Assembly: GCF_000212375.1 (NCBI RefSeq)
Contig: NC_015501.1
Location: forward strand, 1,922,001 to 1,986,000
DNA length: 64,000 nt
Origin: Porphyromonas asaccharolytica DSM 20707
GTDB lineage: Bacteria; Bacteroidota; Bacteroidia; Bacteroidales; Porphyromonadaceae
Direction of reading: 5' to 3'
This document shows, in pieces, positions 26,873-52,682 of this stretch; the stretch's first letter is position 1; each line of letters starts with the position of its first letter. The notes under the pieces were generated by a model. That model was given only the letters and a program-made list of their open reading frames with translations, searched no databases and was not told where the DNA came from. Made by a program: the position numbers and the translations under genes.

Positions 26873-27000
26873 CCACAACATCAATCAGGTATAAACCTAC
26901 AAAAGGCAAGAACCTCTTGCACAATTAGGAGAAATTTCTGAAACACTATCTGTCATCTACCAACACAACATAAATCAAATAAATGGCAGAATGAGACATT

Positions 27001-27449
27001 GAACGGCAACTGGTCTCTCATATCGCCAAATATCTTCTGGAAGTGGATAGAAGCTTTGCATTTGTGGCACCGCAGAAGCATTTTGAAGTGGACGATTCTG
27101 ATTTCTATGCCGACCTCATCCTCTATAACACCCAACTACATACATAGGTAGTTGTCGAACTTAAAGCCACACCTTTCAAACCTGAATATATGGGACAACT
27201 TAACTTCTAAAACAATGTAATGGATGATACTCTCCGTAGCGAGCACGACAACAAGACCATCGGCTTGCTCCTCTGCAATGGAGGGATAAAGAGGTAGTGC
27301 AATATGACCTCTCTGTCTATGATCAATCAATCGGGGTCAGCGATTATCAACAGACAAAAGCTATTCCCGACGACCCTCGCTCCACCCTCTCCAGGATCGA
27401 GGAAGTAGAGGCGGAATTTAGTAAAACAACAAGACGCATAAATAATTAA
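27001..27449 (+). pseudogene. Broken YhcG/DUF1016 nuclease, C-terminal part
   Basis: Translation from 27001 gives ERQLVSHIAKYLLEV, FAFVAPQKHFEVDDSDFYADLILYN and VVVELKATPFKPEYMGQLNF, the PD-(D/E)xK domain of DUF1016 proteins. It is interrupted by TAG at 27145 and TAA at 27208, and needs a frameshift near 27285 to continue as VVQYDLSVYDQSIGVSDYQQTKAIP to the stop at 27447. The N-terminal half is missing. YhcG-type proteins are often found in restriction or defence islands. The ATPase-TOPRIM gene begins 6 bp later. Confidence 0.8.
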
Positions 27450-27455: not shown

Positions 27456-29057
27456 ATGAGTACATTATTATTACCAAATGAAATGGTGGAATCTGTGTCC
27501 AACTTTGTCATTATTGGGGCAAATGGAAGTGGAAAGAGCCATTTAGGAGCTTGGATTGAAGAGAATCAGAATGAGGGCATAAACGTGTTGAGAATTTCAG
27601 CACAAAGAGCACTTACTATCCCTAAAACGATAATGGTACAGAGCGAAGAAGTTTCCTGGAATAAAATTTACTACGGAAATGAAACAGATAAAAGAAAAGA
27701 TCATAAATGGGGATGGGGAAATCCTACATCAACTCTTGTAAATGATTACGAAAGCGTATTGTCTGCAGTCTTCGCTAGGGATAATAAAGAAAACAAAGCT
27801 TACGTGGATGAATGTAAACAATTAGAAGCACAAGAAAAACCACACAACAATGTCCCTAAAATGATCTCAGACCTTATGATCGAAGTGTGGAATTCTGTGT
27901 TTCCTCATCGGAAGATAAAATTAGAGGATGCCTGTATTAAAGTTGCTCTTCCTAATGATGAAACTGCGACATATCAAGCGAATAACATGTCTGATGGAGA
28001 ACGTGTCGCTATTTATTTAATAGGACAATGTCTTATTGCCCCAGCTAAAACTATTGTTGTAATAGATGAACCCGAAATTCATTTACATAAGACGATTATG
28101 CATAAGTTATGGGATGAGATTGAAAAATGTTGTTCTGATAAAACTCTTGTGTATATAACACATGACTTAGATTTTGCAGCCTCTAGAAAGGATTCTACTA
28201 AGATCTGGGTAAAATCATATCAAGGGAACTCGACTTGGGAGTATTCTATTCTTGACTCTAATGGTGATATTCCCGATAGGCTCTACTTCGAAGTTCTTGG
28301 AAGCAGAAAACCAGTATTATTCGTTGAAGGAGAGAAAGGTAGTTATGACACCCATCTATATTCATATATTTATGATGGCTATAATATAATTCCTTGCGGC
28401 AATTGTTATAACGTAATTGCCATGACCAAAGCCTTCAATAATGAAAAAGTCAGAAGTCTACACAACAACAACATATTTGGTATTGTTGACAGAGACTATA
28501 TGACTCGTGAAGAGATAACTAGCCTTGAAAATCACAATATAAAAGTATTGCATATTGCCGAAATAGAGAATTTATATCTCCTTGAGGGAGTTATCAGAGC
28601 TGTTGCCGAAAATCAAGGATTATCTGCTGATGAGAAATTCGAATCAGTTAAGACGTTTGTTTTTAAAGAGTTTTCCAAAGAAAAAGAATCGCAAATATGT
28701 AAGATGTGCGAAAGAGACATACACCATAGACTGAAGGGTTATAGTGTAGGAAAGAACGCAACAAAAGTTTATATAGGAGAACAGCTAAAGGCTCTTGTTG
28801 AGCAAATTGACACGAATGGCATGTATGAAGAATATGAAAATCAGATTGATCAAATTATAGCAAAACAGAATTATGATGAACTCCTTTTACGATACAATCG
28901 AAAAAGCCTGCACAAAAGAGTCTCTCCATTCTTTGATCTAGCTTCAAATAATTATCCTGAGTTAGTCTTACGCTTACTTAAAACTGAAAGAGGAAAATCT
29001 ATTATAGATTCGATGAGAAGTAGGTGTCCTAATCTACCTGAAGTACAAGAATTATAG
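27456..29057 (+). CDS. ATPase-TOPRIM (DUF4435) fusion, PARIS-like defence protein
   Basis: Single 533-residue protein with two halves. Residues 1-280 are an ABC-type AAA ATPase: Walker A GANGSGKS (21-28), signature-like NMSDGERVA (177-185), Walker B IVVIDEPEIHLH (200-211) and switch histidine THD (235-237). Residues 285-533 look like the TOPRIM nuclease DUF4435: VLFVEGEKGSYD (287-298) supplies the Glu and FGIVDRDY (341-348) the DxD pair. In PARIS the ATPase (AriA) and TOPRIM nuclease (AriB) are usually separate, with fused forms known; an OLD-like protein is the alternative. Codon use is A+T-rich, unlike the core genes, which points to transfer. Confidence 0.75.
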   Translation: MSTLLLPNEMVESVSNFVIIGANGSGKSHLGAWIEENQNEGINVLRISAQRALTIPKTIMVQSEEVSWNKIYYGNETDKRKDHKWGWGNPTSTLVNDYESVLSAVFARDNKENKAYVDECKQLEAQEKPHNNVPKMISDLMIEVWNSVFPHRKIKLEDACIKVALPNDETATYQANNMSDGERVAIYLIGQCLIAPAKTIVVIDEPEIHLHKTIMHKLWDEIEKCCSDKTLVYITHDLDFAASRKDSTKIWVKSYQGNSTWEYSILDSNGDIPDRLYFEVLGSRKPVLFVEGEKGSYDTHLYSYIYDGYNIIPCGNCYNVIAMTKAFNNEKVRSLHNNNIFGIVDRDYMTREEITSLENHNIKVLHIAEIENLYLLEGVIRAVAENQGLSADEKFESVKTFVFKEFSKEKESQICKMCERDIHHRLKGYSVGKNATKVYIGEQLKALVEQIDTNGMYEEYENQIDQIIAKQNYDELLLRYNRKSLHKRVSPFFDLASNNYPELVLRLLKTERGKSIIDSMRSRCPNLPEVQEL

Positions 29058-29170
29058 ACTCCCTGTCCTCTTCCTGAAAAAAGTACACAGTTGGGAAGGT
29101 GTTACTGAGATGATACACGGGTTGTTTTTGTTAATCCTGTGAGCGTTCTCATCTGTTAGTTTTGCTCCTG

Positions 29171-30211
29171 CTAGGGTACACGACTTGTCGTCGTCTTTAC
29201 TGCGGAGGTACACAAAGATAGGTCTTTGTTGGGAGTTAAGCGGCATGAGCTCGGAGATTTGAGGCTCAGAGCTTTGGGAGAATTGTTCTTAGCTATCTGG
29301 TTCTTAGAGGGTTGGGTGGTTAGAGGGTTGGGGTAATTTGGTATGAGCATCTGCATCGGAGTCTTCTTGTTGATGGCTCGATGAGGTCGCGCTGTGTTAT
29401 AGAGAGCAATCGTTTGAGAGAGGATCTCTCGAACTTGATCTATGGGCTTATCCTCGAAGTTGTAAAGCCAGTCGTTCTTGATGATCCCGTTAAGTCGCTC
29501 AGCCATAGCGTTGTGAAGGGGGTTTCCGGTCTGGGTGACGCTGGTTACGATGCCTAGGCTGGCCTCGTAGTCCGTCATCTGCTTGGAGACATATTGACAG
29601 CCTCGGTCGCTATGGAAGATGAGCCCTTTGAGGTCAAAGCCATGCTTCTGATAGAAGTCAACGGTCTGTCTTAGTGCGTTGTAGGGACCCTCTGTGGAGA
29701 GCGTGGGCTGCAGGTCAAAGCCGGTGATGATGCGGCTATAAGCGTCCATCGTCAGGGAGAGATATGCGAAGCCCCCTAAACATTTGACGTAGGTTATGTC
29801 TGAGACGGTGAGCCGGCAATGGTCGGTGGCTATGTACTTAGGGGTGGTGTTCAGGTGGTCTTGGAAGCCGTGATTGACCACTCCCTTGGTCGTCTGGGGT
29901 GGACGCTTGCGCTTGCGACTTCTTAGTAGCATATCGTTGGCTCCTAACACTTTGTAGAGCCAGTCTCGACCTACTTGGAAGGTCCCTTTGAAGTATTCGT
30001 TGGCACACTGCTGGATGGTGTCTACGCCTGCTTTGGGGAGCTGACCGCGCACATACTGGCAATAGTGTAGGACGGAAGCTACTTTGACATCTTCGTCTTG
30101 CTCGGTGAAGGTGTGCTTGTAGTAGCCTTTGCGGCTGACTTCTAACAGCTGACAAAGGTAGGTTATGGAGAGCTTTTGATCTCTCTCTTTGGCGGACTCA
30201 AGCTGTCTCAC
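29171..30211 (-). CDS. IS3-family transposase OrfB (DDE integrase domain)
   Basis: Catalytic subunit of the IS. An HTH_21-like N-terminal part (about 30-80) precedes the integrase core with first Asp in VSDITYV, second Asp in FHSDRGCQYVS and Glu in NAMAERLNGIIKNDW. The C-terminal 45 residues run towards the left inverted repeat and are probably untidy coding. It overlaps orfA by 14 bp, in the +1 phase relative to orfA; the GTG at 30211 may be an internal start. Confidence 0.92.
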   Translation of the reverse strand: MRQLESAKERDQKLSITYLCQLLEVSRKGYYKHTFTEQDEDVKVASVLHYCQYVRGQLPKAGVDTIQQCANEYFKGTFQVGRDWLYKVLGANDMLLRSRKRKRPPQTTKGVVNHGFQDHLNTTPKYIATDHCRLTVSDITYVKCLGGFAYLSLTMDAYSRIITGFDLQPTLSTEGPYNALRQTVDFYQKHGFDLKGLIFHSDRGCQYVSKQMTDYEASLGIVTSVTQTGNPLHNAMAERLNGIIKNDWLYNFEDKPIDQVREILSQTIALYNTARPHRAINKKTPMQMLIPNYPNPLTTQPSKNQIAKNNSPKALSLKSPSSCRLTPNKDLSLCTSAVKTTTSRVP

Positions 30212-30611
30212 GGCTGCAAATCGGTCTTTTTTTTAGATCAATGTGGTAGCGATTCAAGACCACTTCGAGTAGTGTCTTGTTGACTAATGCCTTGCTCTCA
30301 GCCTGGAAGAGGGCTGCTTTGAGACGAGCGTTTTCACGCTTGAGTTCTGCGTACTCTGGATCTACGTCTTTGTTCTTGTTTGTCTTGCTCATAGTGCTAC
30401 TGGTGCTTTGGTTGGGTAACTCTACATCAAAGGTACGCAACCAATTTCGAATGGTGCGTGTGGTAATGCCGTAGCGCTGGCTGGTGGTGGCAATGCTGTC
30501 ACCGGTGGCTAGGAGGTCGTCAATGACTCTCCACTTGAAATCTAGGGGATATCCCTTTCGTCCTAGTTTACTTTTTTCTTGTTTCATAGTTGTTGGGGTT
30601 GGCTTCCCCAA
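30198..30611 (-). CDS. IS3-family transposase OrfA (helix-turn-helix)
   Basis: DNA-binding subunit: HTH segment FKWRVIDDLLATGDSIATTSQRYGITTRTIRNWLRTF (about 25-60) followed by a leucine-zipper-like coiled coil (EYAELKRENARLKAALFQAESKAL). An A8 run at 30227-30234 (minus-strand A) lies just before the stop, a site where IS3 elements usually shift frame. 137 residues. The upstream ATG at 30594 or so (MKQEKSKLGRKG) is an equally possible start. Confidence 0.88.
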   Translation of the reverse strand: MGKPTPTTMKQEKSKLGRKGYPLDFKWRVIDDLLATGDSIATTSQRYGITTRTIRNWLRTFDVELPNQSTSSTMSKTNKNKDVDPEYAELKRENARLKAALFQAESKALVNKTLLEVVLNRYHIDLKKRPICSRETA

Positions 30612-30654
30612 CTGTGTACTATTTCAGGAGAGGACACTATGCTATTTCATTTCG

Positions 30655-36775: not shown

Positions 36776-37972
36776 CTAATAATTTATTGAGGTATAACTG
36801 GGGAGCTCTTTTGATGTTGTAGCAAATGGCTTCAAGTATATTTTGTGCATGCGTCTTAGCCAATCCCCGACTTCTTCTTTCAATTGAGAGGAATAAGTGC
36901 CATACAATGTTTCATCCATAAATGGATTGTAGGTCGGATTGGAGAGGTAGGTATTAAATGTATTGGCCGAGTACCCCTTGCCTAGTCGGGAGCCATTGAG
37001 TGCAATGCCATTCGCATCGTCTATGAACGTAATACCATAGATACGCCCGCTCTCATTCTTTCGGATAACCATTCGCAAGCCTTGCTCCTCCAATCGATGT
37101 CGCAGTACTTCCTCTGTTTGGGGAGAAGTACGCATTACTTGTAGGACTTTCTCCCTTACGGCTGGTATCAGTGGCTTGATAGCTTGCTTAGATTGTTGCA
37201 TCCTATTCTGCACGGCTGTATAGCCCACACCACGACCGATCTCCGAGGCATGGATGGGTGTACTGACCTTATCGCCTTTATCATCAGTCGGTACATAGAC
37301 CAGCCCATCGTACTTCTTCCCTCGAAACTCTGTTTTGACTTCTTCCACGGCAAGATTGTAGTGGGAAAGAATGGCATTGAGTTCTCCCAGCGAACAGAAG
37401 CGATAATGCTTCAGAACAGAACGAGCTATAGATGCTACCTGCTCTTTGATATTTCCCTTTGCCATATCCACCCTTGCGAGCTTTTGTAGAGACTTGTCTG
37501 TAACCTCTGTGCTGGGAATTAGATGGTACTTCTTCTCCAACGCATCCGTAATTTTCTTGCTTCGTCTGCCCTCGAACTTGTCATTGATCTTTCTACCATA
37601 ACCATCTACTCTTAGCGACACGATGTGTATATGCTCACGGGCAATATCATTGTGCTTGAACACAATGTAGGGTTGCTTACCATAGCCCAGAGCCTCCATA
37701 TATTCCTTAGCAATCTGCGATAGCGTTTCATCGGACAGCTTCTCATCTGGATGCGGATTGAGCGAGCAATGGAAGACCGTCTTCTTTGTTCGACACTTTT
37801 CGGGTATCAATGCTTGCATATCTGCAAGTACCTCCGACATCGTATATTCGCCCGCTCTGTTTTGGTACAAGCCATGTGCCAATAAGAGTGTCGCTTCCTT
37901 CTTATTCACCTTCTTGAAGTTGTAGCCGAGTGCACCCCCGAGGTTCTCCGTTGCTGAAATCTTGGCAATCAT
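36776..37972 (-). CDS. MOBP-type relaxase (MobB)
   Basis: Nicks oriT and leads the transferred strand. The three-histidine motif is visible in FKHNDIAREHIHIVSLRVDGYGRKI (about 103-127), and the N-terminus MIAKISATENLGGALGYN fits Bacteroidetes MobB relaxases. 398 residues. Its ATG overlaps the MobA-like stop by 1 nt (TAATG), so both are made from one transcript. The usual next gene, the coupling ATPase, is absent; sequence beyond the stop is relic DNA. Confidence 0.9.
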   Translation of the reverse strand: MIAKISATENLGGALGYNFKKVNKKEATLLLAHGLYQNRAGEYTMSEVLADMQALIPEKCRTKKTVFHCSLNPHPDEKLSDETLSQIAKEYMEALGYGKQPYIVFKHNDIAREHIHIVSLRVDGYGRKINDKFEGRRSKKITDALEKKYHLIPSTEVTDKSLQKLARVDMAKGNIKEQVASIARSVLKHYRFCSLGELNAILSHYNLAVEEVKTEFRGKKYDGLVYVPTDDKGDKVSTPIHASEIGRGVGYTAVQNRMQQSKQAIKPLIPAVREKVLQVMRTSPQTEEVLRHRLEEQGLRMVIRKNESGRIYGITFIDDANGIALNGSRLGKGYSANTFNTYLSNPTYNPFMDETLYGTYSSQLKEEVGDWLRRMHKIYLKPFATTSKELPSYTSINY

Positions 37973-38382
37973 TACTTGCGGTAATCAATGGTCAGAGAGA
38001 TAGCCTGCTCCTGCAAGGCAATAATCTGAGCTGATAGTTGCTCCAGTTTCTCAAGCAGTATCTGAGCTGTCTTCACGCCATGATAGCTGTTGATGGCTCG
38101 TACAGCTTGGTTATACAGCACGCCTATCTTATGTATCTGGGCAGTCAACTCGGAGAGCTTACGATAGTACTCCACGGCAGACTTATCTACCGTTATCACC
38201 TTGAAATGCTCTCCCAATATCCTTGCCCGCACGAAGTCGGACTTCGTTTCCGCCCCTGATTTATAGAACAAGTCAATCGCCCGTTGCTGGTCTTTCGGGT
38301 CAGGCAAGCGTACATGCCAGTTGTCCCAGCGAGGTTTTTCTGCCGCTTTTCGTTCAGAACGATGCTCCTCTTTCTTATCCAT
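37972..38382 (-). CDS. Relaxosome accessory protein (MobA/MobC-like)
   Basis: A small helical DNA-binding accessory protein: WDNWHVRLPDPKDQQRAIDLFYKSGAETKSDFVRARILG is the ribbon-helix-helix-like part, followed by the family segment SELTAQIHKIGVLYNQAVRAIN. ATG 38382 (MDKKEEHR) was chosen; the longer frame adds an unlikely Cys-rich leader. It is coupled to the relaxase gene and faces the repeat-rich gap that should hold oriT. Confidence 0.82.
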   Translation of the reverse strand: MDKKEEHRSERKAAEKPRWDNWHVRLPDPKDQQRAIDLFYKSGAETKSDFVRARILGEHFKVITVDKSAVEYYRKLSELTAQIHKIGVLYNQAVRAINSYHGVKTAQILLEKLEQLSAQIIALQEQAISLTIDYRK

Positions 38383-38701
38383 ATCTATTTGTTTTCTAAT
38401 TACGACTTTGGAGTAATTCATCTCCCCTTCGGGGCAAGGGTCTTTGTGGTACAAACTGCGGTTTGTGTTACAAAGACACACCTTGCCAATATCAAGAAGT
38501 GATACGATGAAGTATCCACCCCTCGGGGGTGTCTACTTCGGAGAGAAAAGCTCCACGACTTCTATCTGCCTGCAAAGTTACAGCGACCTTGTAACTAATT
38601 CACTATAAACGATATTCCTATGATTTCACTCCTTTTCCTCATGCTTCACTAGAGGTTGAGACTTAGGTTAAGAGCTAGTTATTTTGCAACCAAACTCAAT
38701 C
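38383..38701. other. Gap between mobA and the repeat array; probable oriT region
   Basis: No gene is visible. In CTnDOT-type elements oriT lies upstream of the mob genes, so it is expected here, but I cannot point to a nick site. A CCACCCCTCGGGGGTG palindrome at 38516-38531 is the clearest small structure. Confidence 0.4.
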
Positions 38702-38970
38702 TTGAGTTAAGTCAAAACCTAACTCTTGAGCTGAGTCAATTTTGAGTTGAGTCAAAACCTAACTCTTGAGCTAAGTCAATTTTGAGCTGAGTCAAAACCT
38801 AACTCTTGAGCTAAGTCAATTTTGAGCTGAGTCAAAACCTAACTCTTGAGTTAAGTCAATTTTGAGTTAAGTCAAAACCTAACACTTGAGCTAAGTCAAT
38901 TTTGAGTTAAGTCAAAACCTAACTCTTGAGTTCAGTCAATTTTGAGTTGAGTCAAAACCTAACTCTTGAG
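38702..38970. repeat. Array of 14-mer TTGAGYTRAGTCAA in 40-bp pairs
   Basis: Thirteen near-identical 14-mers start at 38702, 38726, 38742, 38766, 38782, 38806, 38822, 38846, 38862, 38886, 38902, 38926 and 38942, with a partial copy at 38966. Spacing alternates strictly 24 and 16 bp (40-bp period). Each pair is joined by ACCTAACTC. The variation is confined to C/T and A/G at the two central positions. It ends 54 bp before traA, so it could be a binding array for TraA/ParA-type or relaxosome proteins. Confidence 0.92.
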
Positions 38971-39033
38971 TCAGATTTAGAGTGAAACAATTGCCCCATA
39001 GGCTTATAACATAAGTAGTAACCAAAGAACGAT

Positions 39034-39825
39034 ATGGACAGATCAAACAACCGCCCGCTCTACCTAGGCTTCGCTTCACAAAAGGGAGGAGTCGGTAAGA
39101 GTACGCTAGCCGAAGTGCTAGCATCTATTTTATACTACGAGAAGGATATCCCGCTTGTCGTAGTGGACTGCGATGGCACGCAGGAGTCATTTTTCAAGCT
39201 CAGAGAGCGTGACAGAGACCTTATTGGAACCTCTCCAGATATAGGGAAAGCACTCCACGAGCGACTTGCCCAATATGGGAAGAAGTCTTACCAGATTATC
39301 CGAAGCAATCTAGAGCAGGCGATAAGCAATACAGAGCAATACTTGAGTAAAGCACCGATAGCTCCCCAACTCGTCATATTCGACTTCCCAGGTCATGTTG
39401 CTACCAGTGCTATGATGGAGCTATCCATTATGATGGACTATATCATCTCCCCCATAGAGGCTGACCCGCAATCGCTGGCATCAAGCTTTGCTTATGCCAA
39501 GACAATCCAAGAGCTAGGTGTAGGCTTTGCCGAGTCTCAAATCCAAGATCTCTTTTTGCTTTGGAACAAAGTAAATCGCAGTGCCAGCACTGTGGTCATT
39601 GAACTGTTCAGTCAGCATGCCCAAGAGCAGGGCTTGAAGATCCTAGACGCTCGTATCTATCACTCCGTTCGCTTCAGTCGTGAGCTAGCTCAAGGGGGTG
39701 TCAAGGGAGTCTTTCGTTGCTCTTATCTACCTCCAGCTACCACGCTACGCCCTCAGACGGGTGTGGATGAATGGGTCGAAGAGGTGATGCAAAAGCTAGA
39801 ACTACAAAAAGGTACAAGCGTATGA
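39034..39825 (+). CDS. traA: ParA-family ATPase TraA
   Basis: First gene of the transfer operon. Deviant Walker A motif FASQKGGVGKSTLAEVL (14-30), Walker A' Asp in VVVDCDGTQES and Walker B-like LVIFDFPGH mark a MinD/ParA ATPase. In CTnDOT-type elements TraA opens the tra operon; its role may be element positioning. 263 residues. Its TGA overlaps the next ATG (ATGA). Confidence 0.88.
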   Translation: MDRSNNRPLYLGFASQKGGVGKSTLAEVLASILYYEKDIPLVVVDCDGTQESFFKLRERDRDLIGTSPDIGKALHERLAQYGKKSYQIIRSNLEQAISNTEQYLSKAPIAPQLVIFDFPGHVATSAMMELSIMMDYIISPIEADPQSLASSFAYAKTIQELGVGFAESQIQDLFLLWNKVNRSASTVVIELFSQHAQEQGLKILDARIYHSVRFSRELAQGGVKGVFRCSYLPPATTLRPQTGVDEWVEEVMQKLELQKGTSV

Positions 39826-40355
39826 GCTCACTTAAAGAACAGCGAGAGCGACTGCTCCAAGCTAAGATGAGAGAGATGGCAAATATAGGGGTCACCAAGC
39901 GTACCGCAGAGAATATCCCAGACTTTGATGAGCCGATAGATTTGGATGAAGAGCCAACGCTTGAAGAGGAGTATAATGTCGTCTCAGAGACCGAGGAAAC
40001 AACATCCTCTACTCCGACCTCCTCTCCTCAAGCATCTCAGCGTCACAGCTCTAAAAGAAAGCTTTCGGACAAGGGGGAGGAGAAGCCTAATCCTAGGAGT
40101 TGCTCATCGACACTAGAGTTTGCAGCATACGAAGAGCGTTTCCTGACATCTGTACGAGACGGACGCAACAAGTCTGGCTTCAGCATTCATACCGAAGTGC
40201 TACAGCTACTTCGAAATGTGGTGAGTGATCTCCGTGTAGAGACCTCCATCACAAGCTATATTGAAAACATCATACTGGATCACTTGAAAACGCACCAGGA
40301 GCTATTAAACCAAATCGTCTCTCAGCGGAGACGAGATAAGACTATTGACCTATGA
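39822..40355 (+). CDS. traB: Conjugal transfer protein TraB (DUF3408)
   Basis: 177 residues from ATG 39822, which overlaps the traA stop. The N-terminal half is acidic and of low complexity (EEPTLEEEYNVVSETEETTSSTPTSS). The C-terminal half carries the DUF3408 pattern YEERFLTSVRDGRNKSGFSIHTEVLQLLRNVVSDLRVETSITSYIENIILDHL, resembling a ribbon-helix-helix DNA-binding fold. A second DUF3408 gene (traC) often follows, but not here. Confidence 0.85.
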   Translation: MSSLKEQRERLLQAKMREMANIGVTKRTAENIPDFDEPIDLDEEPTLEEEYNVVSETEETTSSTPTSSPQASQRHSSKRKLSDKGEEKPNPRSCSSTLEFAAYEERFLTSVRDGRNKSGFSIHTEVLQLLRNVVSDLRVETSITSYIENIILDHLKTHQELLNQIVSQRRRDKTIDL

Positions 40356-41107
40356 TTGAAGAGACATTGAGATGCTTACTGCTCTTATTAGGGATTGTGT
40401 GGGTAATCTTTGGCATCACATATTGGCGGAGACTCTTGAACAGCTCCAAGCAAGACCCTACAAGAAAGGCTACAGCCAAGAAAGAAAAGACGGAAAAGGC
40501 AGACTCCAATCAAGAGTCTAAGGACCTAGTTAGAGACGAACTAGTCGGCAAGAGTAAGCCTTTTGTTTCCTCATCTTTCCCAATGGTTCCTAAGAGTTCC
40601 TCGTCTGAAAAAGCGGACGATAATCCCGCTACATTTGCAGAGTTAGATAGTGATAAGTCAACGCAAAGAGATGACGCTAGAGAGCCTTTAGAAGAGGAAA
40701 GCGAAACTATCCCTGAGGCAGAAAACGAGATACAAGTCACCTACACGATGGAGGATCTAGATGAGGAGAGCATCCTGCGGGAGGAGTTACAGATTGCCAG
40801 CGAAGCACTGCCCGAACTCTCCCCGACCGCCATCTTAGCAAGAGATTTATCTCGTATTAGCCAATGGAGCAAGCAAGAGGATTCACTGACTAATGAAAAT
40901 GAAGAGGAGGTGTGCCAGACGCTCCGCACCCTGCGAGGAACGGAGCTTATGGATCGGCTCAAAGAGTACACGCTACAAGTGGAGGAAGCTCACCGCAATC
41001 TCTTTGCAGCCCTGCGGAAAGCTGAAGAGCTAGAAGAGGAACCCGCACCTTCCCAAGTAGAGGCAGAAGCGGGTGAAGAAGAGAAACCGCTCTCTTACTA
41101 CTTGTAA
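40352..41107 (+). CDS. traD: Conjugal transfer protein TraD
   Basis: Membrane-anchored protein of unknown function: one transmembrane segment at about 7-26 (LRCLLLLLGIVWVIFGITYW), then a long, acidic, Glu/Ser-rich and low-complexity tail. The first codon overlaps the traB stop. Assignment rests on position between traB and traE and on the N-terminal anchor. Confidence 0.65.
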   Translation: MIEETLRCLLLLLGIVWVIFGITYWRRLLNSSKQDPTRKATAKKEKTEKADSNQESKDLVRDELVGKSKPFVSSSFPMVPKSSSSEKADDNPATFAELDSDKSTQRDDAREPLEEESETIPEAENEIQVTYTMEDLDEESILREELQIASEALPELSPTAILARDLSRISQWSKQEDSLTNENEEEVCQTLRTLRGTELMDRLKEYTLQVEEAHRNLFAALRKAEELEEEPAPSQVEAEAGEEEKPLSYYL

Positions 41108-41161
41108 CCCAACAATAGAACAGCAAGATTATTCTTTAACAACTTGATATAACGACAGACA

Positions 41162-41479
41162 ATGAACAGACGAATGATTAGCAAGGAACGCCTAGCGATG
41201 CTTGCCCTGACCCTGATGATGACAGGTGCGACAGCCTTTGCCCAAGGCAATGGTATGGCGGGCATCAACGAAGCGACCAAGATGGTCACTTCCTATTTTG
41301 ACCCAGCCACCAAGCTCATCTATGCCATTGGGGCAGTGGTGGGCTTGATAGGCGGTGTCAAGGTGTACAATAAGTTTAGCTCAGGAGACCCCGATACGAG
41401 CAAGACAGCTGCAAGCTGGTTTGGAGCTTGTATCTTCCTCATCGTAGCTGCTACCATCCTGCGTAGCTTCTTCCTCTAA
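41162..41479 (+). CDS. traE: Conjugal transfer protein TraE (DUF4134)
   Basis: 105 residues: a signal-like first segment (MLALTLMMTGATAFAQ, cut after AQ), then GMAGINEATKMVTSYFDPATKLIYAIGAVVGLIGGVKVYNKFSSGDPDTSKTAASWFGACIFL, the DUF4134 signature with two hydrophobic helices. It is the counterpart of the VirB2-type pilin/core subunit by position and topology (inference). The gene ends with traF starting at its last base. Confidence 0.9.
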   Translation: MNRRMISKERLAMLALTLMMTGATAFAQGNGMAGINEATKMVTSYFDPATKLIYAIGAVVGLIGGVKVYNKFSSGDPDTSKTAASWFGACIFLIVAATILRSFFL

Positions 41480-41805
41480 TGGCTAGTTGGGAAGTAAATA
41501 AAGGAGTCGGTCGGACGGTGGAGTTCAAGGGATTGAAGGCTCACTACCTCTTCCTGTTTGCAGGAGGATTACTGGGTATCTTCATCCTTGTAGTGATTCT
41601 CTATCTCTGTGGCATCAGTCAGATCATCTGCTTGGGCATAGGCGTAGTGGGTGCCACCGTTGTGGTGTGGCAAACGTTCGCCATGAATCGCAAGTATGGT
41701 CAATATGGATTGATGAAGCGAGGAGCTATAAGAAGACACCCGAGGTATCTCTTGAACCGCCGTTCGGTTTATCAGCTTTTTCACCAACTCAATAGCTCTA
41801 GATGA
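41479..41805 (+). CDS. traF: Conjugal transfer protein TraF (DUF4133)
   Basis: 108 residues, basic N-terminus then two adjacent membrane helices (HYLFLFAGGLLGIFILVVILYLCG and QIICLGIGVVGATVVVWQTF). The pattern VNKGVGRTVEFKGLKAHYLFLFAGG fits DUF4133, the VirB3-like inner-membrane part of the secretion channel. Overlaps traG by 4 bp. Confidence 0.88.
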   Translation: MASWEVNKGVGRTVEFKGLKAHYLFLFAGGLLGIFILVVILYLCGISQIICLGIGVVGATVVVWQTFAMNRKYGQYGLMKRGAIRRHPRYLLNRRSVYQLFHQLNSSR

Positions 41806-44321
41806 TGAGAAACAGAAGCAAGATAACCATCTTGGAGTCAAAGTTCCCCTTGCTGAGTGTAGAGCATGGGTGCATTGTCAGTAAGGATGCTGATGTGACG
41901 GTTGCTTTTCGAGTGGAGCTACCCGAGCTTTTTACAGTCACATCTGCAGAGTATGAGACGATGCACTCTACTTGGCATAAAGCAATCAAGGTGCTACCCA
42001 ACTTCACGATCGTCCACAAGCAAGATTGGTTCATCAAGGAGTGCTACCATACAACTTGCAAGCGTGGTCAGGAAAAGCCTTTGAGCTTTCTCGCTCGTGC
42101 CTCTGAGAGACATTTCAATGAGCGACCCTATCTAAACCATACCGTCTACCTCTTTATCACGAAGAGCAATCGACAGCGTATGGCACAGCAGAGTAGCTTC
42201 TCAACGCTTTGTAGAGGTCATCTACTCCCTAAAGAGATTACCAACGAAGAGGAGATGGTGAAGTTTATGGAGTCGGTGGATCAGTTCGAACGCATCATCA
42301 ATGAATCCGAATTGATAAAGCTGGCTCGAATGAGCGAGGCTGAGCTGGTTGGCTCTAGGGAGCAAGCTGCTCTCTTAGATCGCTACTTCACTCTATCAGA
42401 TAGCAGACACGGCACATTGGAGGATATACGTCTAGGGGCAGACCTTGTACGTGTGGGAGACAATATGCTGTGCCTACATACGCTCTCGGATACGGATGAT
42501 CTACCCACTACGGTCAGTACCGATGGTCGCTATGAGCGATTATCAACAGACCGCTCGGACTGCCGCCTCTCCTTTGCCTCTCCAGTGGGGCTGATGCTCC
42601 CCTGCAACCATATCTACAATCAATACCTCTTCATTGAAGATAGCGAGGCTAACTTGCAGCGTTTTGAGAAGCAGGCTAGAAATATGCACTCTCTAGCGCG
42701 CTACAGCCGTAGTAATCAAATCAACGAAGAGTGGATACAGGAGTATCTCAACACAGCACACTCTCAGGGACTCACCTCCATTAGAGCTCACTTTAATGTC
42801 TTGGCATGGAGTGACGATGAAGAGGAGCTACGACAAGTCAAGAATGATGTGGGCTCTGCACTTGCCTTGATGGAGTGCCGTCCTAGACATAACACCATCG
42901 ATACAGCGACCCTCTACTGGGCGGCTATCCCGGGTAATGCAGGGGACTTTCCCGCAGAAGAGTCTTTCTACACCTTCATTGAGCCGGCTCTCTGTTTCTT
43001 CACGGCAGAGACCAACTACAAGGACTCACTCTCACCCTTTGGGATTAAGATGGCAGACAGATTATCTGGTAAGCCGATACATCTCGACATATCTGATCTG
43101 CCGATGAAGCAAGGAATCATTACCAACCGTAACAAGTTTATCTTGGGACCTTCCGGCAGTGGTAAGAGTTTCTTTACGAACCATATGGTACGACAATATT
43201 ACGAACAGGGGGCGCATGTCCTCTTGGTTGATACGGGTAACTCGTATCAAGGGTTGTGCGAACTAATCCATCGTAAGACAAAGGGAGAGGATGGAGTCTA
43301 CTTCACCTACACCCATGACCATCCTATCTCCTTCAATCCTTTTTATACGGATGACAAGTTCTTTGATGTTGAGAAACGGGAGAGTATCTGCACCCTACTG
43401 ATGACGCTTTGGAAGAGTGCCGATGAGCGGGTCACCAAGACTGAGGCTGGAGAGCTGGGCTCTGCTGTCAATGCCTATATCGAACTCATCTGCTCAGATG
43501 CTAGTATTGTCCCGAACTTCAATAGCTTCTACGAATACCTTAGAGATGTCTATCGAAAAGATATGGAGCAGCGAGATATCAAGGTGACGCTCTCAGACTT
43601 CAATATCAATAACCTTCTGACTACGCTCAAGCAGTACTACAAAGGTGGTCGTTACGACTTCCTACTGAACTCGGATAAGAACATAGACCTGCTCTCTAAA
43701 CGGTTTATCGTCTTCGAGATTGACCAAGTGAAGGACAATAAAGACCTCTTCCCCGTGGTGACCATTATCATCATGGAAGCCTTTATCAATAAGATGCGCC
43801 GACTGAAGGGTATCCGCAAGATGATCCTTATCGAGGAGGCCTGGAAGGCGATTGCTTCGGAGAATATGGCGGACTACATTAAGTATCTCTACAAAACGGT
43901 CAGAAAGTATTTCGGAGAGGCTATTGTGGTGACGCAGGAGGTAGACGATATCATCTCTTCACCCGTAGTGAAGGAGAGTATCATCAATAACTCCGACTGC
44001 AAGATCCTACTGGACCAGCGTAAGTACATGACCAAGTTTGATGGTATCCAATCGATGCTGGGTCTCTCCGAAAAGGAGAAGAGCCAAATCCTCTCAATCA
44101 ATCAGAACAATGATCCTCACCGACTCTACAAAGAGGTGTGGGTCGGGCTGGGAGGTATGCAGAGTGCCGTCTATGCTACAGAGGTGAGTATGGAGGAGTA
44201 TCTCACCTATACGACAGAGGAGCGAGAGAAGCTGGAAGTCATGCAACGTGCGGAGCATCTGGGAGGAGACATTGAGTCGGCCATCCGACAGCTCGCCATA
44301 GAGAAAAGAGATAAGCAATAA
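41802..44321 (+). CDS. traG: TraG conjugation ATPase (VirB4-like)
   Basis: Energises the type IV secretion channel. Walker A FILGPSGSGKSFFTNH is at about residues 447-461, Walker B-like MILIEEAWKAIAS in the C-terminal half, and the TraG-type N-terminal domain precedes them. 839 residues matches Bacteroidetes TraG. Coding is intact; the motif YFGEAIVVTQEVDDII fits the VirB4 arginine-finger region. Confidence 0.95.
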   Translation: MMRNRSKITILESKFPLLSVEHGCIVSKDADVTVAFRVELPELFTVTSAEYETMHSTWHKAIKVLPNFTIVHKQDWFIKECYHTTCKRGQEKPLSFLARASERHFNERPYLNHTVYLFITKSNRQRMAQQSSFSTLCRGHLLPKEITNEEEMVKFMESVDQFERIINESELIKLARMSEAELVGSREQAALLDRYFTLSDSRHGTLEDIRLGADLVRVGDNMLCLHTLSDTDDLPTTVSTDGRYERLSTDRSDCRLSFASPVGLMLPCNHIYNQYLFIEDSEANLQRFEKQARNMHSLARYSRSNQINEEWIQEYLNTAHSQGLTSIRAHFNVLAWSDDEEELRQVKNDVGSALALMECRPRHNTIDTATLYWAAIPGNAGDFPAEESFYTFIEPALCFFTAETNYKDSLSPFGIKMADRLSGKPIHLDISDLPMKQGIITNRNKFILGPSGSGKSFFTNHMVRQYYEQGAHVLLVDTGNSYQGLCELIHRKTKGEDGVYFTYTHDHPISFNPFYTDDKFFDVEKRESICTLLMTLWKSADERVTKTEAGELGSAVNAYIELICSDASIVPNFNSFYEYLRDVYRKDMEQRDIKVTLSDFNINNLLTTLKQYYKGGRYDFLLNSDKNIDLLSKRFIVFEIDQVKDNKDLFPVVTIIIMEAFINKMRRLKGIRKMILIEEAWKAIASENMADYIKYLYKTVRKYFGEAIVVTQEVDDIISSPVVKESIINNSDCKILLDQRKYMTKFDGIQSMLGLSEKEKSQILSINQNNDPHRLYKEVWVGLGGMQSAVYATEVSMEEYLTYTTEEREKLEVMQRAEHLGGDIESAIRQLAIEKRDKQ

Positions 44322-44347
44322 TAGTAACAATCAAATACCTAGTGACA

Positions 44348-44977
44348 ATGAAAAAGTATCTGCTGATGGCTCTCTTTGCAATGAGCCTATTTATCCCTCA
44401 AGCCCACGCTCAGTGGGTGGTTACCGACCCTGGGAACTTTGCTGGCAACATAGCTAACTCCATTAAGGAGATTGCCACCGCGTCGAAGACGGTCAAAAAC
44501 ACGCTAAGTGGTTTTAAGGAGGTGGAGAAACTGTACAACGACACCAAGAAGTACTACGATGCACTCAAGCAGGTTAACAACCTTATAGGCGATGCCTACA
44601 AGGTGAAGGAGTGCATCCTAATGGTGGGAGACATATCAGAGATCTATGTAACCTCCTACAAGAAGATGCTAACGGACCCAAACTTCCGCCCCACAGAGCT
44701 AGCCGCGATGGCTGCTGGCTATGCCAAGCTCTTGGAACTGAGTGGCGAGAGTCTTAAGGAGCTGAAGTCTGTAGCTAAGAGCAAGGTGTTCTCGATGAAT
44801 GATAGCGAGCGTATGCAGATGATAGACCGCATCTATACGACACTACGTGAGTATCGATCGATTGTTTCTTACTACACCCGAAAGAATATCTCCGTGAGCT
44901 ATGTACGTGCTCACGAGAAGAATGATCTGGCATCGGTCAAAGCGCTTTATGGAAATCCAGAGAGCCGATATTGGTAA
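44348..44977 (+). CDS. traI: Conjugal transfer protein TraI (DUF4141)
   Basis: 209 residues beginning MKKYLLMALFAMSLFIPQAHAQ, a clear signal peptide, so ATG 44348 is preferred to the GTG two codons upstream. The mature part is helical (KEIATASKTVKNTLSGFKEVEKLYNDTKKYYDALKQVNNLIG), as in DUF4141, likely a periplasmic VirB5-like component. No traH-like gene is seen between traG and traI. Confidence 0.85.
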   Translation: MKKYLLMALFAMSLFIPQAHAQWVVTDPGNFAGNIANSIKEIATASKTVKNTLSGFKEVEKLYNDTKKYYDALKQVNNLIGDAYKVKECILMVGDISEIYVTSYKKMLTDPNFRPTELAAMAAGYAKLLELSGESLKELKSVAKSKVFSMNDSERMQMIDRIYTTLREYRSIVSYYTRKNISVSYVRAHEKNDLASVKALYGNPESRYW

Positions 44978-45009
44978 GAACATCTATGTAAAGATAGCCG
45001 TTAGGATCT

Positions 45010-46047
45010 ATGGACTTTGCATCACTACATGAATTACTCCGCTCCACCTATCAGGAGATGATGCCTCTCTGTGGAGAGATGACGGGCATTGCCAAGGGGA
45101 TTGCGGGATTAGGAGCGCTCTTCTATGTAGCCGTAAGGGTGTGGTCTTCGTTGTCTCGTGCCGAGCCGATTGACCTTTTCCCCTTACTGAGACCTTTTGT
45201 GCTGGGCTTCTGTATTATGTTCTTCCCAACGATTGTGCTGGGTACGATGAATACGATTCTCTCTCCTGTGGTACAAGGTACAGAGCGAATGGTCAATAAG
45301 CAGACGGTACAACTAGACAAGTTGATCGCTAAGCGTGACAAACTACAAGAGGCTGCCTATCTCCGTAATCCCGAGACGGCTTACTTGGTTTCCAATGAAG
45401 CTTTTGACCAAAAGATAGAGGAGATGGGGATCATCGGGCCGAGCGATGCGGTGACCATCGCTGGGATGTATGCCGAACGTGCTGCTTACAAAACAAAGCA
45501 GTGGCTGATGAAGCAACTCCATGACCTCATAGAGTTGCTATACCATGCAGCTGCTCTGATTATTGATACGCTCCGTACCTTCTTTCTTATCGTGCTGAGC
45601 ATACTGGGACCAATCGTCTTTGGTATTGCGGTTTGGGATGGCTTGTCGGGGTCGCTTACGGCTTGGTTCTCACGCTACATATCGGTCTATCTGTGGTTAC
45701 CCGTGAGCTCTGTCCTCTCGGCTCTCCTCACAAAGATACAGGTGTTGATGGTGCAGAAGGATATTGCAGCATTGAGTGACCCTAACTATTTGCCCGATTC
45801 GGGTAGCTGGTACTACATTGTCTTCTTCCTGATTGGTATCGTGGGGTACTTCTGTGTTCCTACGGTAGCGGGCTGGATTATAGAGGCTGGTGGTGGTATC
45901 GGGGCATACGGACGCAATGTCAATCAGACGGCGCAACGAGGTGCTCAAGGTGCCTATACGGGAGGTAAAGCGGTAGCTGGTGCCACGGGGTCTATGGCCG
46001 GCAACGTAGGCGGACGTATCAAAGGGGCACTTATCAAGGGGAAATAG
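45010..46047 (+). CDS. traJ: Conjugal transfer protein TraJ (VirB6-like)
   Basis: 345-residue polytopic membrane protein with about six helices (LFPLLRPFVLGFCIMFFPTIVLG, LIIDTLRTFFLIVLSILGPIVFGIAVW, YIVFFLIGIVGYFCVPTVAGWII) and a Gly/Ala-rich tail (GAQGAYTGGKAVAGATGSMAGN). It matches CTn TraJ and is the VirB6-type channel base by topology. It is followed by a 384-bp gap that holds an operator-like repeat array. Confidence 0.9.
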   Translation: MDFASLHELLRSTYQEMMPLCGEMTGIAKGIAGLGALFYVAVRVWSSLSRAEPIDLFPLLRPFVLGFCIMFFPTIVLGTMNTILSPVVQGTERMVNKQTVQLDKLIAKRDKLQEAAYLRNPETAYLVSNEAFDQKIEEMGIIGPSDAVTIAGMYAERAAYKTKQWLMKQLHDLIELLYHAAALIIDTLRTFFLIVLSILGPIVFGIAVWDGLSGSLTAWFSRYISVYLWLPVSSVLSALLTKIQVLMVQKDIAALSDPNYLPDSGSWYYIVFFLIGIVGYFCVPTVAGWIIEAGGGIGAYGRNVNQTAQRGAQGAYTGGKAVAGATGSMAGNVGGRIKGALIKGK

Positions 46048-46195
46048 CGTCCCTTCAGCCGAAGGGTGGCTATGACACGCTTGATGAGGATGCGATGACC
46101 ACGTGACGGTCGTATGACGGTCAGGTGGGTAGGATTAGCTCCTCCTATGTGGGTTAATGTAGCAGCTGGGGAGGTAAGCGTAGTGCCTGCCGTGT

Positions 46196-46394
46196 GGCAC
46201 TACAGTTTCCTACCCGTGGCACTGGAGTTTCCTGCCTATGAAACTAGAGTTTCCTACCTATGAAACTAGAGTTTCCTACCTATGAAACTGCAGTTCCCTC
46301 CGTATGAAACTGCAGTGCCAAGTGGGGTTGGCACTCGAGTTTCACCCGTATGGCACTACAGTGCCAAGGCGCATTGGCACTAGACTACCCCTCA
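46196..46394. repeat. Nine-unit 22-bp array of (GGCACT or GAAACT)-NN-AGT sites between traJ and traK
   Basis: Units start at 46196, 46218, 46240, 46262, 46284, 46306, 46330, 46352 and 46376, a spacing of 22 bp with two steps of 24 bp. Each core is a near-palindrome such as GAAACTAGAGTTTC, GAAACTGCAGTGCC or GGCACTACAGTGCC, with half-sites drawn from two types (GAAACT/AGTTTC and GGCACT/AGTGCC). Two helical turns per unit would place bound dimers on one DNA face. No gene fits in 46048-46431. Confidence 0.88.
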
Positions 46395-46431
46395 GAAGTT
46401 TTTAGAGATAAGACAATTAGAATAATGGAAT

Positions 46432-47055
46432 ATGGAATTCAAATCACTCACAAACATAGAGACCTCTTTCAAGCAGATTAGGCTCTACGCCATCATCTTT
46501 GCGATAGTCTGCATAGCGGTCAGTAGCTATGCGGTCTACGCTTCGTACAGCTTTGCTAAGAAGCAGCGTGAGAAGGTGTACGTACTAGACCAAGGGAAGT
46601 CTCTGATGCTGGCTCTGAGCCAAGACGCTTCGATGAACCGCCCGGTGGAGGCTCGAGAGCATGTAAGACGCTTTCACGAGCTTTTCTTCACGATTGCGCC
46701 CGACAAGGATGCTATCGAGAAGAATATGGAGCGTGCTTTCCAACTATGCGACAAGTCCGCCTTTAACTACTACAAGGATCTAGCAGAGAAGGGGTACTAC
46801 AATCGAGCTATCTCGGGCAATGTCAACCAACGTATAGAGATTGACTCCATACGGTGTGACTTTGACTCTTACCCCTACGAAGTAACCACCTTTGCTCGGC
46901 AGTTTATTATCCGACAGAGCAATGTCACGGAGCGGAGCTTGGTGACTAGTTGCTCGCTGCAAAACTCGGTTCGCTCGGACAACAATCCGCAAGGGTTTCT
47001 GATGGAGCACTTCCTCGTACGAGAGAATCGTGACATCCAAACTTACAAGCGATAA
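46432..47055 (+). CDS. traK: Conjugal transfer protein TraK (VirB8-like)
   Basis: 207 residues with a short cytoplasmic N-terminus, one membrane helix (LYAIIFAIVCIAVSSYAVYASYSF, about 19-42) and a periplasmic domain, the VirB8 topology. MEFKSLTNIETSFKQIRLY and HEFFTIAPDKDAIEKNMERA-like segments match Bacteroidetes TraK. Reads into traL with 4 bp between. Confidence 0.9.
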   Translation: MEFKSLTNIETSFKQIRLYAIIFAIVCIAVSSYAVYASYSFAKKQREKVYVLDQGKSLMLALSQDASMNRPVEAREHVRRFHELFFTIAPDKDAIEKNMERAFQLCDKSAFNYYKDLAEKGYYNRAISGNVNQRIEIDSIRCDFDSYPYEVTTFARQFIIRQSNVTERSLVTSCSLQNSVRSDNNPQGFLMEHFLVRENRDIQTYKR

Positions 47056-47059
47056 GTCT

Positions 47060-47347
47060 ATGAAGCGAAGAAGTAGACCTACCCTCAGAAGAAGCTATTT
47101 GAGGGGGCAGGTACGGCTAAGAGAGCGGTGCAATATGCTAACGAACAGACAGCGACAGATTATTGTCTATGGACTGAGTTTCGTCTACCTAGTCTGCTCA
47201 ATCTGGATGGTGGCACAATTCTTCCTCCCGCACCGTGAGGAGATGCCACCTATCCCTATGGGGGAGCTGGTGGACAGCCCGATACAGAGGGATACAACCT
47301 ACATCAAGAGAATGGAACATTTAGCGATTAGTAACTATGGAGCATAA
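47060..47347 (+). CDS. traL: Conjugal transfer protein TraL
   Basis: 95 residues from ATG 47060 (5 bp after the traK stop). A basic N-terminus is followed by one membrane helix (QIIVYGLSFVYLVCSIWMVAQFF). The gene assignment relies on position between traK and traM and on size. It overlaps traM by 11 bp. The longer start at 47030 lies inside traK and is less likely. Confidence 0.75.
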   Translation: MKRRSRPTLRRSYLRGQVRLRERCNMLTNRQRQIIVYGLSFVYLVCSIWMVAQFFLPHREEMPPIPMGELVDSPIQRDTTYIKRMEHLAISNYGA

Positions 47348-48584
47348 ACAGAAAGAACAATTGAAGAAGGTGTTAGTCTTCGCAGGGCTAGGGATTATCT
47401 TTGCCCTTGCTATGTGGTTTATATTTGCACCCGCCACTAAGGAGCAAACGGACGCTGGTGAGGGGTTGAATGACAACATCCCACAAGCTACGACCGAAAA
47501 GCTTACGGAGAATAAACTCAAAGCCTACGAACTAGTTGACCATACAACTCAAGAGGAGCAAGCTCGTGAGGAGGTGGGGAGACTGGCGGAGTACTTTCAG
47601 CAGGAGGGAAACTCGTCTGAGAGCAACCCGCAGGAGGCGGTCGTTGGCAATAAGATTGAGTCTTCAATGCAACGCTACGAGGAGAACAACCGTCTGCTAG
47701 CGGACTTCTACGGCTCTGACCCTTATGAGGAGGAGCGAGAAGCTATGCAACAGGAGATTGATGACCTCAGACGCGAACTGCACGAGCTTAGCCAACAAGA
47801 CGATGACGAGGAAGCTAAGCAACTAGCTCTTATGGAGAAGAGCTACCAAATGGCGGCTAAGTACTTGCCCGCAGCTGGTGCCTCTCCTGCCCATGGAGCT
47901 ATGCCTATGGGTGAGCAGTCTCAGATGGTCTCTCCGCCTAGCGGTGGAGCTGCCAAGGAAGAGGCTCCAATGGAGATTATAGCTGACCACAAGCCGTTGG
48001 TATCAGCACTGGACCAGCCAATGAGTGACGAGGAGTTTATAGAGATGTACGGAGCTAAGGAGCGGAATATGAGCTTTCATTCGCTCTCTAATAACTCCGC
48101 ACACACTGACGGTCGCAATACCCTTTGCGTAGTGGTGGACAAAACAACGACTCTTAAAGAGGGTGACTACGTTGCCCTTCGCCTGCTGGAGACGGCTCGT
48201 GTGCAGCAAACTTCAATCCCAAAGCATAGTCTCTTGATGGCACAAGCTAAGATAGATGGCAACCGAATGCAGCTACTGATTAAGAGCATAGAGGTGAATG
48301 GTCGCATTCTGCCAGTCAAACTATCTGCCTATGATACAGACGGACAGATGGGAGTCTATATTCCTGGCTCTGAAGAGGTGTCAGCACTCAAGGAGATGGG
48401 GGCAAATGTCGGGGGATCAATGGGAACCTCTTTCACCTTTTCCTCTTCGGCTAAAGACCAAATCATCTCCGAGGTGACTAGAGGCGTGATGCAGGGAGCT
48501 GGACAACTACTACAGAAGAAGCTCCGCACGATTAAGGTGACGCTCAAAGGAGGATATAGACTATTCCTTGTACAGACGAAGTAA
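47337..48584 (+). CDS. traM: Conjugal transfer protein TraM (VirB10-like)
   Basis: 415 residues. One N-terminal membrane helix (VLVFAGLGIIFALAMWFIFAP, about 13-33), a long coiled-coil and low-complexity periplasmic middle (DDLRRELHELSQQDDDEEAK), and a C-terminal beta-rich domain (TTLKEGDYVALRLLETARVQ, ISEVTRGVMQGAGQLLQKKLR) that fits TraM of CTns, equivalent to VirB10 spanning inner and outer membranes. Confidence 0.9.
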   Translation: MEHKQKEQLKKVLVFAGLGIIFALAMWFIFAPATKEQTDAGEGLNDNIPQATTEKLTENKLKAYELVDHTTQEEQAREEVGRLAEYFQQEGNSSESNPQEAVVGNKIESSMQRYEENNRLLADFYGSDPYEEEREAMQQEIDDLRRELHELSQQDDDEEAKQLALMEKSYQMAAKYLPAAGASPAHGAMPMGEQSQMVSPPSGGAAKEEAPMEIIADHKPLVSALDQPMSDEEFIEMYGAKERNMSFHSLSNNSAHTDGRNTLCVVVDKTTTLKEGDYVALRLLETARVQQTSIPKHSLLMAQAKIDGNRMQLLIKSIEVNGRILPVKLSAYDTDGQMGVYIPGSEEVSALKEMGANVGGSMGTSFTFSSSAKDQIISEVTRGVMQGAGQLLQKKLRTIKVTLKGGYRLFLVQTK

Positions 48585-48620
48585 GCTTTTAGAACTCTAA
48601 CAATAACAACTGATATACTT

Positions 48621-49562: not shown

Positions 49563-50143
49563 TGAAGAGATGGTTATCCATGATGGTCTGCGTGATGGTG
49601 GCTATGGCTGCTGCTATGCCATCGTACGCACAGAGACTAATCCCTAGGCAAAATAGCGTTGAGCTGGTCGGCTCTATGCCGATTATCAAGGGGGAGAAAC
49701 TATTCGCAAAGGAGAGCTTTGGGGTAGGTCTAGCGTTCGCACACTACTTCAAGCGAGCGAACTACGCTTTTCTCTTGGCGGAATATGAGCAGCAAGGGTT
49801 GACTTATCGCTCTTACAATGTTCCACTGCGTGATGCGCTACTGCATTTTGGCTATATGCACCCGATACTCTCAGATCGGGGGAAGAATGTCTTTGGCTAC
49901 TTGGGTCTATCCGCTCTCTGCGGTTATGAAGAGCTGAACGAGGATAAACGATTACTACCCGATGGGGCTACACTCCTGGACCGATCTCGCTTTACTTATG
50001 GTGGGGCGATACATAGCTCGGTGGAACTGTTCCTAACAGACAATCTGCTCTTCGTCCTCAAAGCTCAAGGGCGACTGTTCTTCGGCTCTGACCTGCATCG
50101 TTTTCGTCCTGCTATCTCAGCAGGACTCAAGTTCAATATCTAA
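49562..50143 (+). CDS. traO: Conjugal transfer protein TraO
   Basis: 193 residues from ATG 49562 (MKRWLSMMVCVMVAMAAAMPSYAQ), a signal peptide; the GTG at 49556 is inside traN. The mature chain looks like a small outer-membrane barrel (VGLAFAHYFKRANYAFLLAEYEQQGL, FTYGGAIHSSVELFLTDNLLFVLK, ending in an Ile after alternating residues), as in CTn TraO. Confidence 0.88.
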   Translation: MKRWLSMMVCVMVAMAAAMPSYAQRLIPRQNSVELVGSMPIIKGEKLFAKESFGVGLAFAHYFKRANYAFLLAEYEQQGLTYRSYNVPLRDALLHFGYMHPILSDRGKNVFGYLGLSALCGYEELNEDKRLLPDGATLLDRSRFTYGGAIHSSVELFLTDNLLFVLKAQGRLFFGSDLHRFRPAISAGLKFNI

Positions 50144-50155
50144 CTACCAACAACA

Positions 50156-51597: not shown

Positions 51598-51727
51598 GTG
51601 ATGGTTTTTATAAAACAACTACTAACAGAAGCAAGAGTCATTTATTGATTAAAAGAAAACAGGAAGGCTTAGAATATTATCTATTAGTATTTCCGTCTTA
51701 ACAAATAACTAAAAGAGAAATCACACT

Positions 51728-52672: not shown

Positions 52673-52682
52673 GATTTCATAC

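Follow-up and report, generated by a model that had tools for sequence, protein, structure and literature searches.

A predicted single-gene PARIS fusion on laterally acquired DNA of Porphyromonas asaccharolytica, and a menA-linked clade of its family

What is the role of a gene that encodes an ATPase and a TOPRIM nuclease in one chain, and that lies between a broken nuclease gene and an insertion sequence? This question is raised by ariAB, a gene of Porphyromonas asaccharolytica DSM 20707 found in a stretch of 64,000 nucleotides (contig NC_015501.1, positions 1,922,001 to 1,986,000), which we call the window and whose own numbering is used below. A preliminary description, made from the letters of the DNA alone, had proposed that the gene resembles PARIS AriA-AriB. 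We consider that its product is probably a fused AAA_21-type PARIS abortive-infection protein residing on laterally acquired DNA, its function being predicted.

The chain joins an AriA-like ABC/OLD ATPase to an AriB-like TOPRIM nuclease, and both sets of catalytic motifs are complete. The open reading frame (ORF) starts with ATG and runs uninterrupted for 533 codons; the third codon 5' of the ATG is an in-frame TAA. In translation, the ATPase half has Walker A (GANGSGKS, residues 21-28), the signature (SDGE, 179-182), Walker B (D204-E205) and the H-loop (H236). The nuclease half has the TOPRIM residues E291-G292 and D345-x-D347, followed by E371-N372; K483 is also marked. Pfam places DUF4435 (PF14491) at residues 284-470 (67.5 bits against a cut-off of 27, E 2e-18) and also finds AAA_21 (PF13304; 55.6 bits, cut-off 27, E 1.1e-14). 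K27, E291, D345 and D347 are each conserved in all 62 aligned family proteins, the window copy counted. The PADLOC model of fused AriAB, PDLC02982, matches residues 7-525 over profile positions 38-565 of 570 with an E-value of 1.3e-158. Since the domain matches exceed the Pfam cut-offs, the AriAB match is of this strength and the catalytic residues are invariant, the motif set is not a product of chance. The preliminary description was right about a one-chain fusion with every named motif intact, and its interpretation as PARIS is partly supported. It had also called the fusion short, which the span of the match to the fused model does not bear out.

The separate PADLOC models fit less well (AriA 4.8e-18, AriB 8e-18), and a second fused model of 694 positions, PDLC02981, matches at 1.1e-15. 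We infer that PDLC02982 is the AAA_21+DUF4435 profile of Rousset and colleagues. Their paper describes ariAB "as a two-gene cassette ... or as a single-gene fusion" (Rousset et al. 2022; PMC9122126). The fused form is thus not the useful new variant that had been suggested, having been in print since 2022. Three features of PARIS are present here: an ABC/OLD-type ATPase with Walker A, signature, Walker B and H-loop, a DUF4435/AriB TOPRIM nuclease with its Glu and DxD, and the two in one ORF, fusions being accepted as PARIS in that paper (PMC9122126). The window copy resembles the single-gene fusion represented by PDLC02982 in near-full length, domain order and motifs, and we found no type-defining difference. 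It appears, then, to be a fused PARIS family member of a kind already described, with a predicted function.

Comparison with the two-gene PARIS of Escherichia coli B185 is less simple. In our structure model, the two halves of the window protein seem to adopt AriA-like and AriB-like folds (PDB 8ux9 and 8v45-8v49, all of which we take to be the B185 system). In contrast to the two-gene system, the window protein is one chain, its ATPase half is about 200 residues shorter than AriA, its effector would not be releasable, and a sequence profile finds no likeness of its nuclease half to AriB chains.

Could the protein instead be an OLD-family or Gabija-like nuclease that cuts DNA, rather than a tRNase of AriB type? 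OLD nucleases and Gabija GajA share with it the arrangement of an ABC ATPase followed by TOPRIM in one chain, and a Foldseek search with the nuclease half returned AriB and an OLD C-terminal region at the same E-value, 8.9e-3. Set beside these are the match to the fused AriAB model and the lack of the expected partner. Next to ariAB there is no GajB: its neighbours are a yhcG remnant and an insertion sequence (IS), and a Pfam scan of nine further ORFs, reaching to 38.5 kb, detected no helicase family. An AlbA_2 protein (34260-35762), which has a domain that Pfam names after the RecG C-terminus, is not GajB-like. Nor is PtuB, the HNH partner in Septu and retron systems, present beside ariAB; Pfam found no HNH in the same nine ORFs, and the one seen in the window (51728-52672) is more than 22 kb from ariAB. 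We regard a DNA nuclease of this kind as unlikely.

Several further results weigh against the PARIS reading. Among the best 25 of 41 NCBIfam matches, no model scores above its cut-off. The whole-chain model has a predicted TM-score (pTM) of 0.57, so the relative arrangement of the two halves is not fixed by it. The fold of the ATPase half is AriA-like, with PtuA of retron Ec83 and of Septu tied within 1 Z, and thus does not single out AriA. Foldseek is weak for both halves, the best E-value (1.5e-6) belonging to a cohesin head, and its tie between AriB and OLD has been mentioned. When PDB is searched with a profile, retron Ec83 (3.3e-10) ranks above AriA; a single-sequence search of PDB with the window protein gives no AriA; and the nuclease-half profile gives no AriB chain there, only 25 chance-level matches up to E 10. 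With about 258 residues, compared with 464 in AriA, the ATPase half is much the smaller, and a sensing part may therefore be missing or different. A shift of frame near residue 208 splits the copy in another genome of the genus (G009; L003:6766-9586). Finally, expression is in doubt. TAnnTTTG is the Bacteroidota -7 promoter motif; the window has 52 such boxes where 28.9 are expected, and the + strand has none from 24066 to 29157. Whatever promoter the 5' part of yhcG may have held has been lost along with it. To these points must be added the place of certain relatives beside menA, described below.

The last observations bear directly on another explanation: that ariAB is the stranded, unexpressed remnant of a restriction operon, with its frame still intact, no promoter and decay ahead. 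Such a state would be compatible with the PARIS reading of the protein. Besides the missing -7 box, it agrees with the broken and 5'-truncated upstream yhcG, with an IS beginning 6 bp past the ariAB stop, and with a genome (G000) in which searches for HsdS and HSDR_N gave no match. Against it stand the intact frame and catalytic residues, and ratios of non-synonymous to synonymous change (dN/dS) of 0.20-0.32 to the nearest copies, though these average over both branches: 0.20-0.22 to L002 (433 codons) and 0.24-0.32 to L003 (two pieces, each compared apart), that to L005 being saturated. Values of this size are those of a gene that had been held under constraint. Transcription might also start at a different kind of promoter or run through from upstream. 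We see a stranded remnant as possible, though somewhat doubtful.

If ariAB is a PARIS gene, what might it have guarded? Its nearest relative with one uninterrupted gene (L048 of genome G059; 52%) is part of a type I restriction operon, in which hsdS and hsdR flank it. On one strand, the order is hsdM (931-3393), yhcG (3406-4506), hsdS (4509-5741), ariAB (5747-7321) and hsdR (7328-10420), with gaps of 12, 2, 5 and 6 bp; the four neighbours of ariAB are each named by Pfam. The PrrC gene is located beside the EcoprrI operon. By analogy with PrrC, one would expect a guard against anti-restriction proteins at the position seen in L048. The literature describes PrrC with EcoprrI, and PARIS in Salmonella BREX, as suicide guards coupled to a restriction-type system. 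The same layout of guard plus restriction is seen in L048, whereas the window retains no restriction operon except the yhcG remnant. This broken gene fits an origin in a type I restriction operon.

Neither association is general. Type I restriction as a rule was rejected: HsdS and HSDR_N both occur beside the fused gene in G059 only, among 33 genomes and records, of which 20 are short virus records (L002 was assessed by its own ORFs). The idea that YhcG is a fixed partner was rejected as well. By BLASTP over L002, L003 and L023-L058, YhcG-like ORFs were found only in L002, L003 (the same as L047) and L048; tblastn over the loci of the 62-sequence tree recovered L048 again and a weak match (24%) downstream in a plasmid locus, L082. 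With so few matches, YhcG goes mainly with the closest kin of the window gene. In L003, a gene for a 402-residue YhcG homologue (YhcG_C and DUF1016_N in Pfam) stands 26 bp before ariAB and is itself preceded by an integrase gene. There yhcG is a full ORF and ariAB is broken, the reverse of the window.

How might a fused protein act? In published PARIS, six AriA hold three AriB inactive; Ocr is sensed, AriB is released and tRNA-Lys is cut (PMC11455837; the hexamer, the three AriB, Ocr, release and tRNA-Lys also figure in PMC12409363). A phage protein such as Ocr binds AriA, and the freed AriB dimerises. Anti-restriction or similar proteins of phages act as triggers, among them Ocr, Arn and Ptr1/Ptr2. 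Reasoning from the two-gene system, the ATPase part would assemble and would sense a phage protein made early in infection; the nuclease part would be freed to cut host tRNA, and growth would stop. In the fusion, this could not be a release. A joint of about 25 residues binds the nuclease to the sensor, so that activation would take place inside the assembly, where a changed pairing might unite the TOPRIM halves of neighbouring chains.

Is the DNA around ariAB foreign? Three close relatives (L071, L072 and L073), in which the protein of the gene at 25361-26872 is 95-97% identical to that of the window, are collinear with the window up to the left edge listed in Table 1, so that ariAB is on DNA missing from that place in them. 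The right edge is sharp, as the match to relative G018 begins at the tRNA-Ser gene. Two restriction-type neighbours that the preliminary description took to be broken are indeed so: the yhcG remnant is 5'-truncated, has 3 stops and changes frame, and what had been called a DUF262 gene is a fragment of 79 residues with a Pfam match to positions 7-48 of 199 of GmrSD_N. The IS, which by our reading is of IS3 type and whose termini were read by eye, has transposase ORFs at 29171-30211 and 30198-30611. Past it come a small HTH gene, a 1060-residue ORF, the AlbA_2 protein, the GmrSD_N fragment, conjugation genes and a tyrosine integrase beside tRNA-Ser.

Table 1. Positions in the window of ariAB, its parts and the surrounding features.
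Feature	Position	Strand	Basis or remark
ariAB, fused ATPase-TOPRIM gene, 533 aa	27456..29057	+	ORF, Pfam, PADLOC, dN/dS, structure model
AriA-like ABC ATPase half, residues 1-258	27456..28229	+	end approximate
Joint between halves, residues 259-283	28230..28304	+	partly structured in model; limits chosen by us
AriB-like (DUF4435) TOPRIM nuclease and helical part, residues 284-533	28305..29054	+	
Left edge of foreign DNA	26883..26888	.	L071, L072 and L073 collinear up to here, no further
yhcG/DUF1016 nuclease pseudogene remnant, directly upstream of ariAB	26983..27425	+	homologue residues 255-402 of 402
IS3-type insertion sequence	29064..30636	-	transposase and integrase-core families (Pfam), imperfect terminal inverted repeats
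Conjugation and integration genes	36776..57481	.	Pfam
Relaxase	36776-37972	-	
MobC	37972-38481	-	
TraG	41802-44321	+	
TraM	47337-48584	+	
DUF4138	48621-49562	+	
Tyrosine integrase	56180-57481	-	
tRNA-Ser(CGA), right edge of element	57780..57868	-	G018 match begins exactly at 57780

The setting in a conjugative element, also proposed earlier, holds in that conjugation and integrase genes lie downstream, but we do not claim the DNA from 26.9 to 57.8 kb as one clean element. The 3' end of tRNA-Ser (a 17-mer, up to 3 mismatches) has no further copy near 26.9 kb, and only two tRNA-Ser genes were found with it; the genome has one more such place, with 1 mismatch, elsewhere. No 10-mer is common to 26801-27500 and 57301-57950. 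The DNA that in G018 lies 3' of the gene ending at 26872 is found at 1448535-1452290 of the window's own genome. With no matching left attachment site and this DNA displaced, the left edge may be a rearrangement.

Some other features of the window can be recorded here. The 1060-residue ORF (30925-34107) gives no convincing match in Pfam, and PADLOC and NCBIfam return nothing for it up to E 1; its N-terminal GPDGGGD...ISCK stretch may resemble a PD-(D/E)XK nuclease. Tandem 40-bp repeats at 38653-39010, which separate the mob genes from a ParA-like gene at 39034, might serve as an origin of transfer or as a partition site. A repeat stretch at 58638-58803 has many copies in related genomes, and an 87-bp hairpin-forming repeat occurs twice (23908-23994 and 59536-59622).

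How widespread is the family? The genome counts given here take in that of the window itself. At 1e-30 or better, the PADLOC model matches 8 of 395 Bacteroidota genomes; the window protein matches 33 of 393 Bacteroidales genomes at 1e-60. The latter search gave 34 places, 30 of them entered as loci (G407:C123 is in as L054; G587, G476 and G681 were left out). Nine of 61 genomes in the relatives set match at E 0.001, four of the nine weakly and partially; in the genus, the window genome and G009 are the only ones to match among the window genome and 25 others. Plasmids contribute 53 records of 72,556 (32 of the 53 cover more than 80% of the query), and phages 2 of 50,697, both Oenococcus phage phi9805. 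Viral contigs hold 24 loci, 3 of them weak and partial. A single-protein scan found 2 loci in genome contigs and no match in viral contigs.

Unusual arrangements also occur. On a Paraburkholderia sabiae plasmid (L082:9348-15705), a two-gene AAA ATPase and DUF4435 pair stands directly 5' of a fused AAA-DUF4435 gene, and a PDDEXK nuclease gene (the YhcG-like one, 24%) stands 3' of it. In L050 (the same place as L007), the family appears as two ORFs, 7956-9179 and 9149-9898, which overlap by 31 bp and divide at the ATPase/TOPRIM joint (query residues 16-285 and 288-527); this is either a natural two-gene form or a frameshift. An invertible switch in L002, where the first 84 residues are on the opposite strand from the rest, was considered and rejected, since the run of unknown bases (a scaffold gap) between the pieces makes the layout look like a scaffolding artefact.

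Does the whole family belong to defence? A maximum-likelihood tree and motif counts were made from 62 distinct ORFs of at least 500 residues, which leaves out the L002 fragment, the split L003 and L050, and duplicates; the placement of four long end branches (L058, L057, L053 and L084) is unsure. A separate clade of 24 (100/100), which is not the branch of the window, has 23 members from Bacteroidales genomes, spread over six families, and a single member from a viral contig. In 17 sequences of the tree, all of them in this clade (L085-L090, L094, L096, L098-L101, L104-L107, L110), a menA-like gene follows directly downstream on the same strand (tblastn; distance -7 to 26 bp). The menA-like gene of L114, which served as query, belongs to the UbiA family (PF01040, Pfam); we read the downstream gene as menA. 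To explain the menA label, the tree requires three changes, possibly a single gain and two losses. The clade also differs in its ATPase motifs: Walker B is DE in 4 of 24 (ED in 16 of 24), compared with DE in 35 of the 38 other sequences, and SDGE is found as the signature in 7 of 24, compared with 36 of the 38 others. Its TOPRIM residues E291, D345 and D347 are as intact as in the rest of the 62. When genomes of the class were searched with a profile of the clade, 6 of 395, among them that of the window, matched at 1e-60; within this sample, then, the clade is not widespread outside its order. Its position and its grouping by families suggest that the gene is resident, and the clade appears to have a core chromosomal place. 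Membership of the family does not prove defence, therefore, given that a core-like clade belongs to it.

On this ground it could be argued that the window protein is likewise a resident cellular protein with no anti-phage role. The 17 menA-linked genes speak for this, and so does the fact that all 24 clade members match PADLOC AriAB at 1e-20 or better. However, the window gene pairs with L048 of the type I restriction operon (100/100), inside a set of 11 sequences without menA links (96/93); it lies on DNA missing at that place in three close relatives; and its ATPase motifs are canonical, unlike those of most of the clade. We therefore hold a resident role to be very unlikely for the window protein, and keep to the fused PARIS reading.

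What follows for the family? Our limited literature search found no paper on PARIS in Porphyromonas and none linking DUF4435 with menA. The window gene would be a further fused PARIS, found in a genus on which that search gave no PARIS paper. Fused forms are of interest because release of AriB, the basis of the published mechanism, is impossible in a fusion. Tentatively, we suggest that the fused-PARIS family is two things. One would be a mobile guard branch, that of the window, possibly associated with type I operons and switching within the chain without release of the nuclease. The other would be a resident Bacteroidales gene upstream of menA, altered in its ATPase motifs (Walker B DE to ED) but not in its tRNase-like active site, and either a tamed cellular PARIS or the ancestral stock of the guard. 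The menA-linked clade is of consequence for surveys, since any that treats AAA+DUF4435 fusions as defence would include a gene that resembles a member of a core operon.
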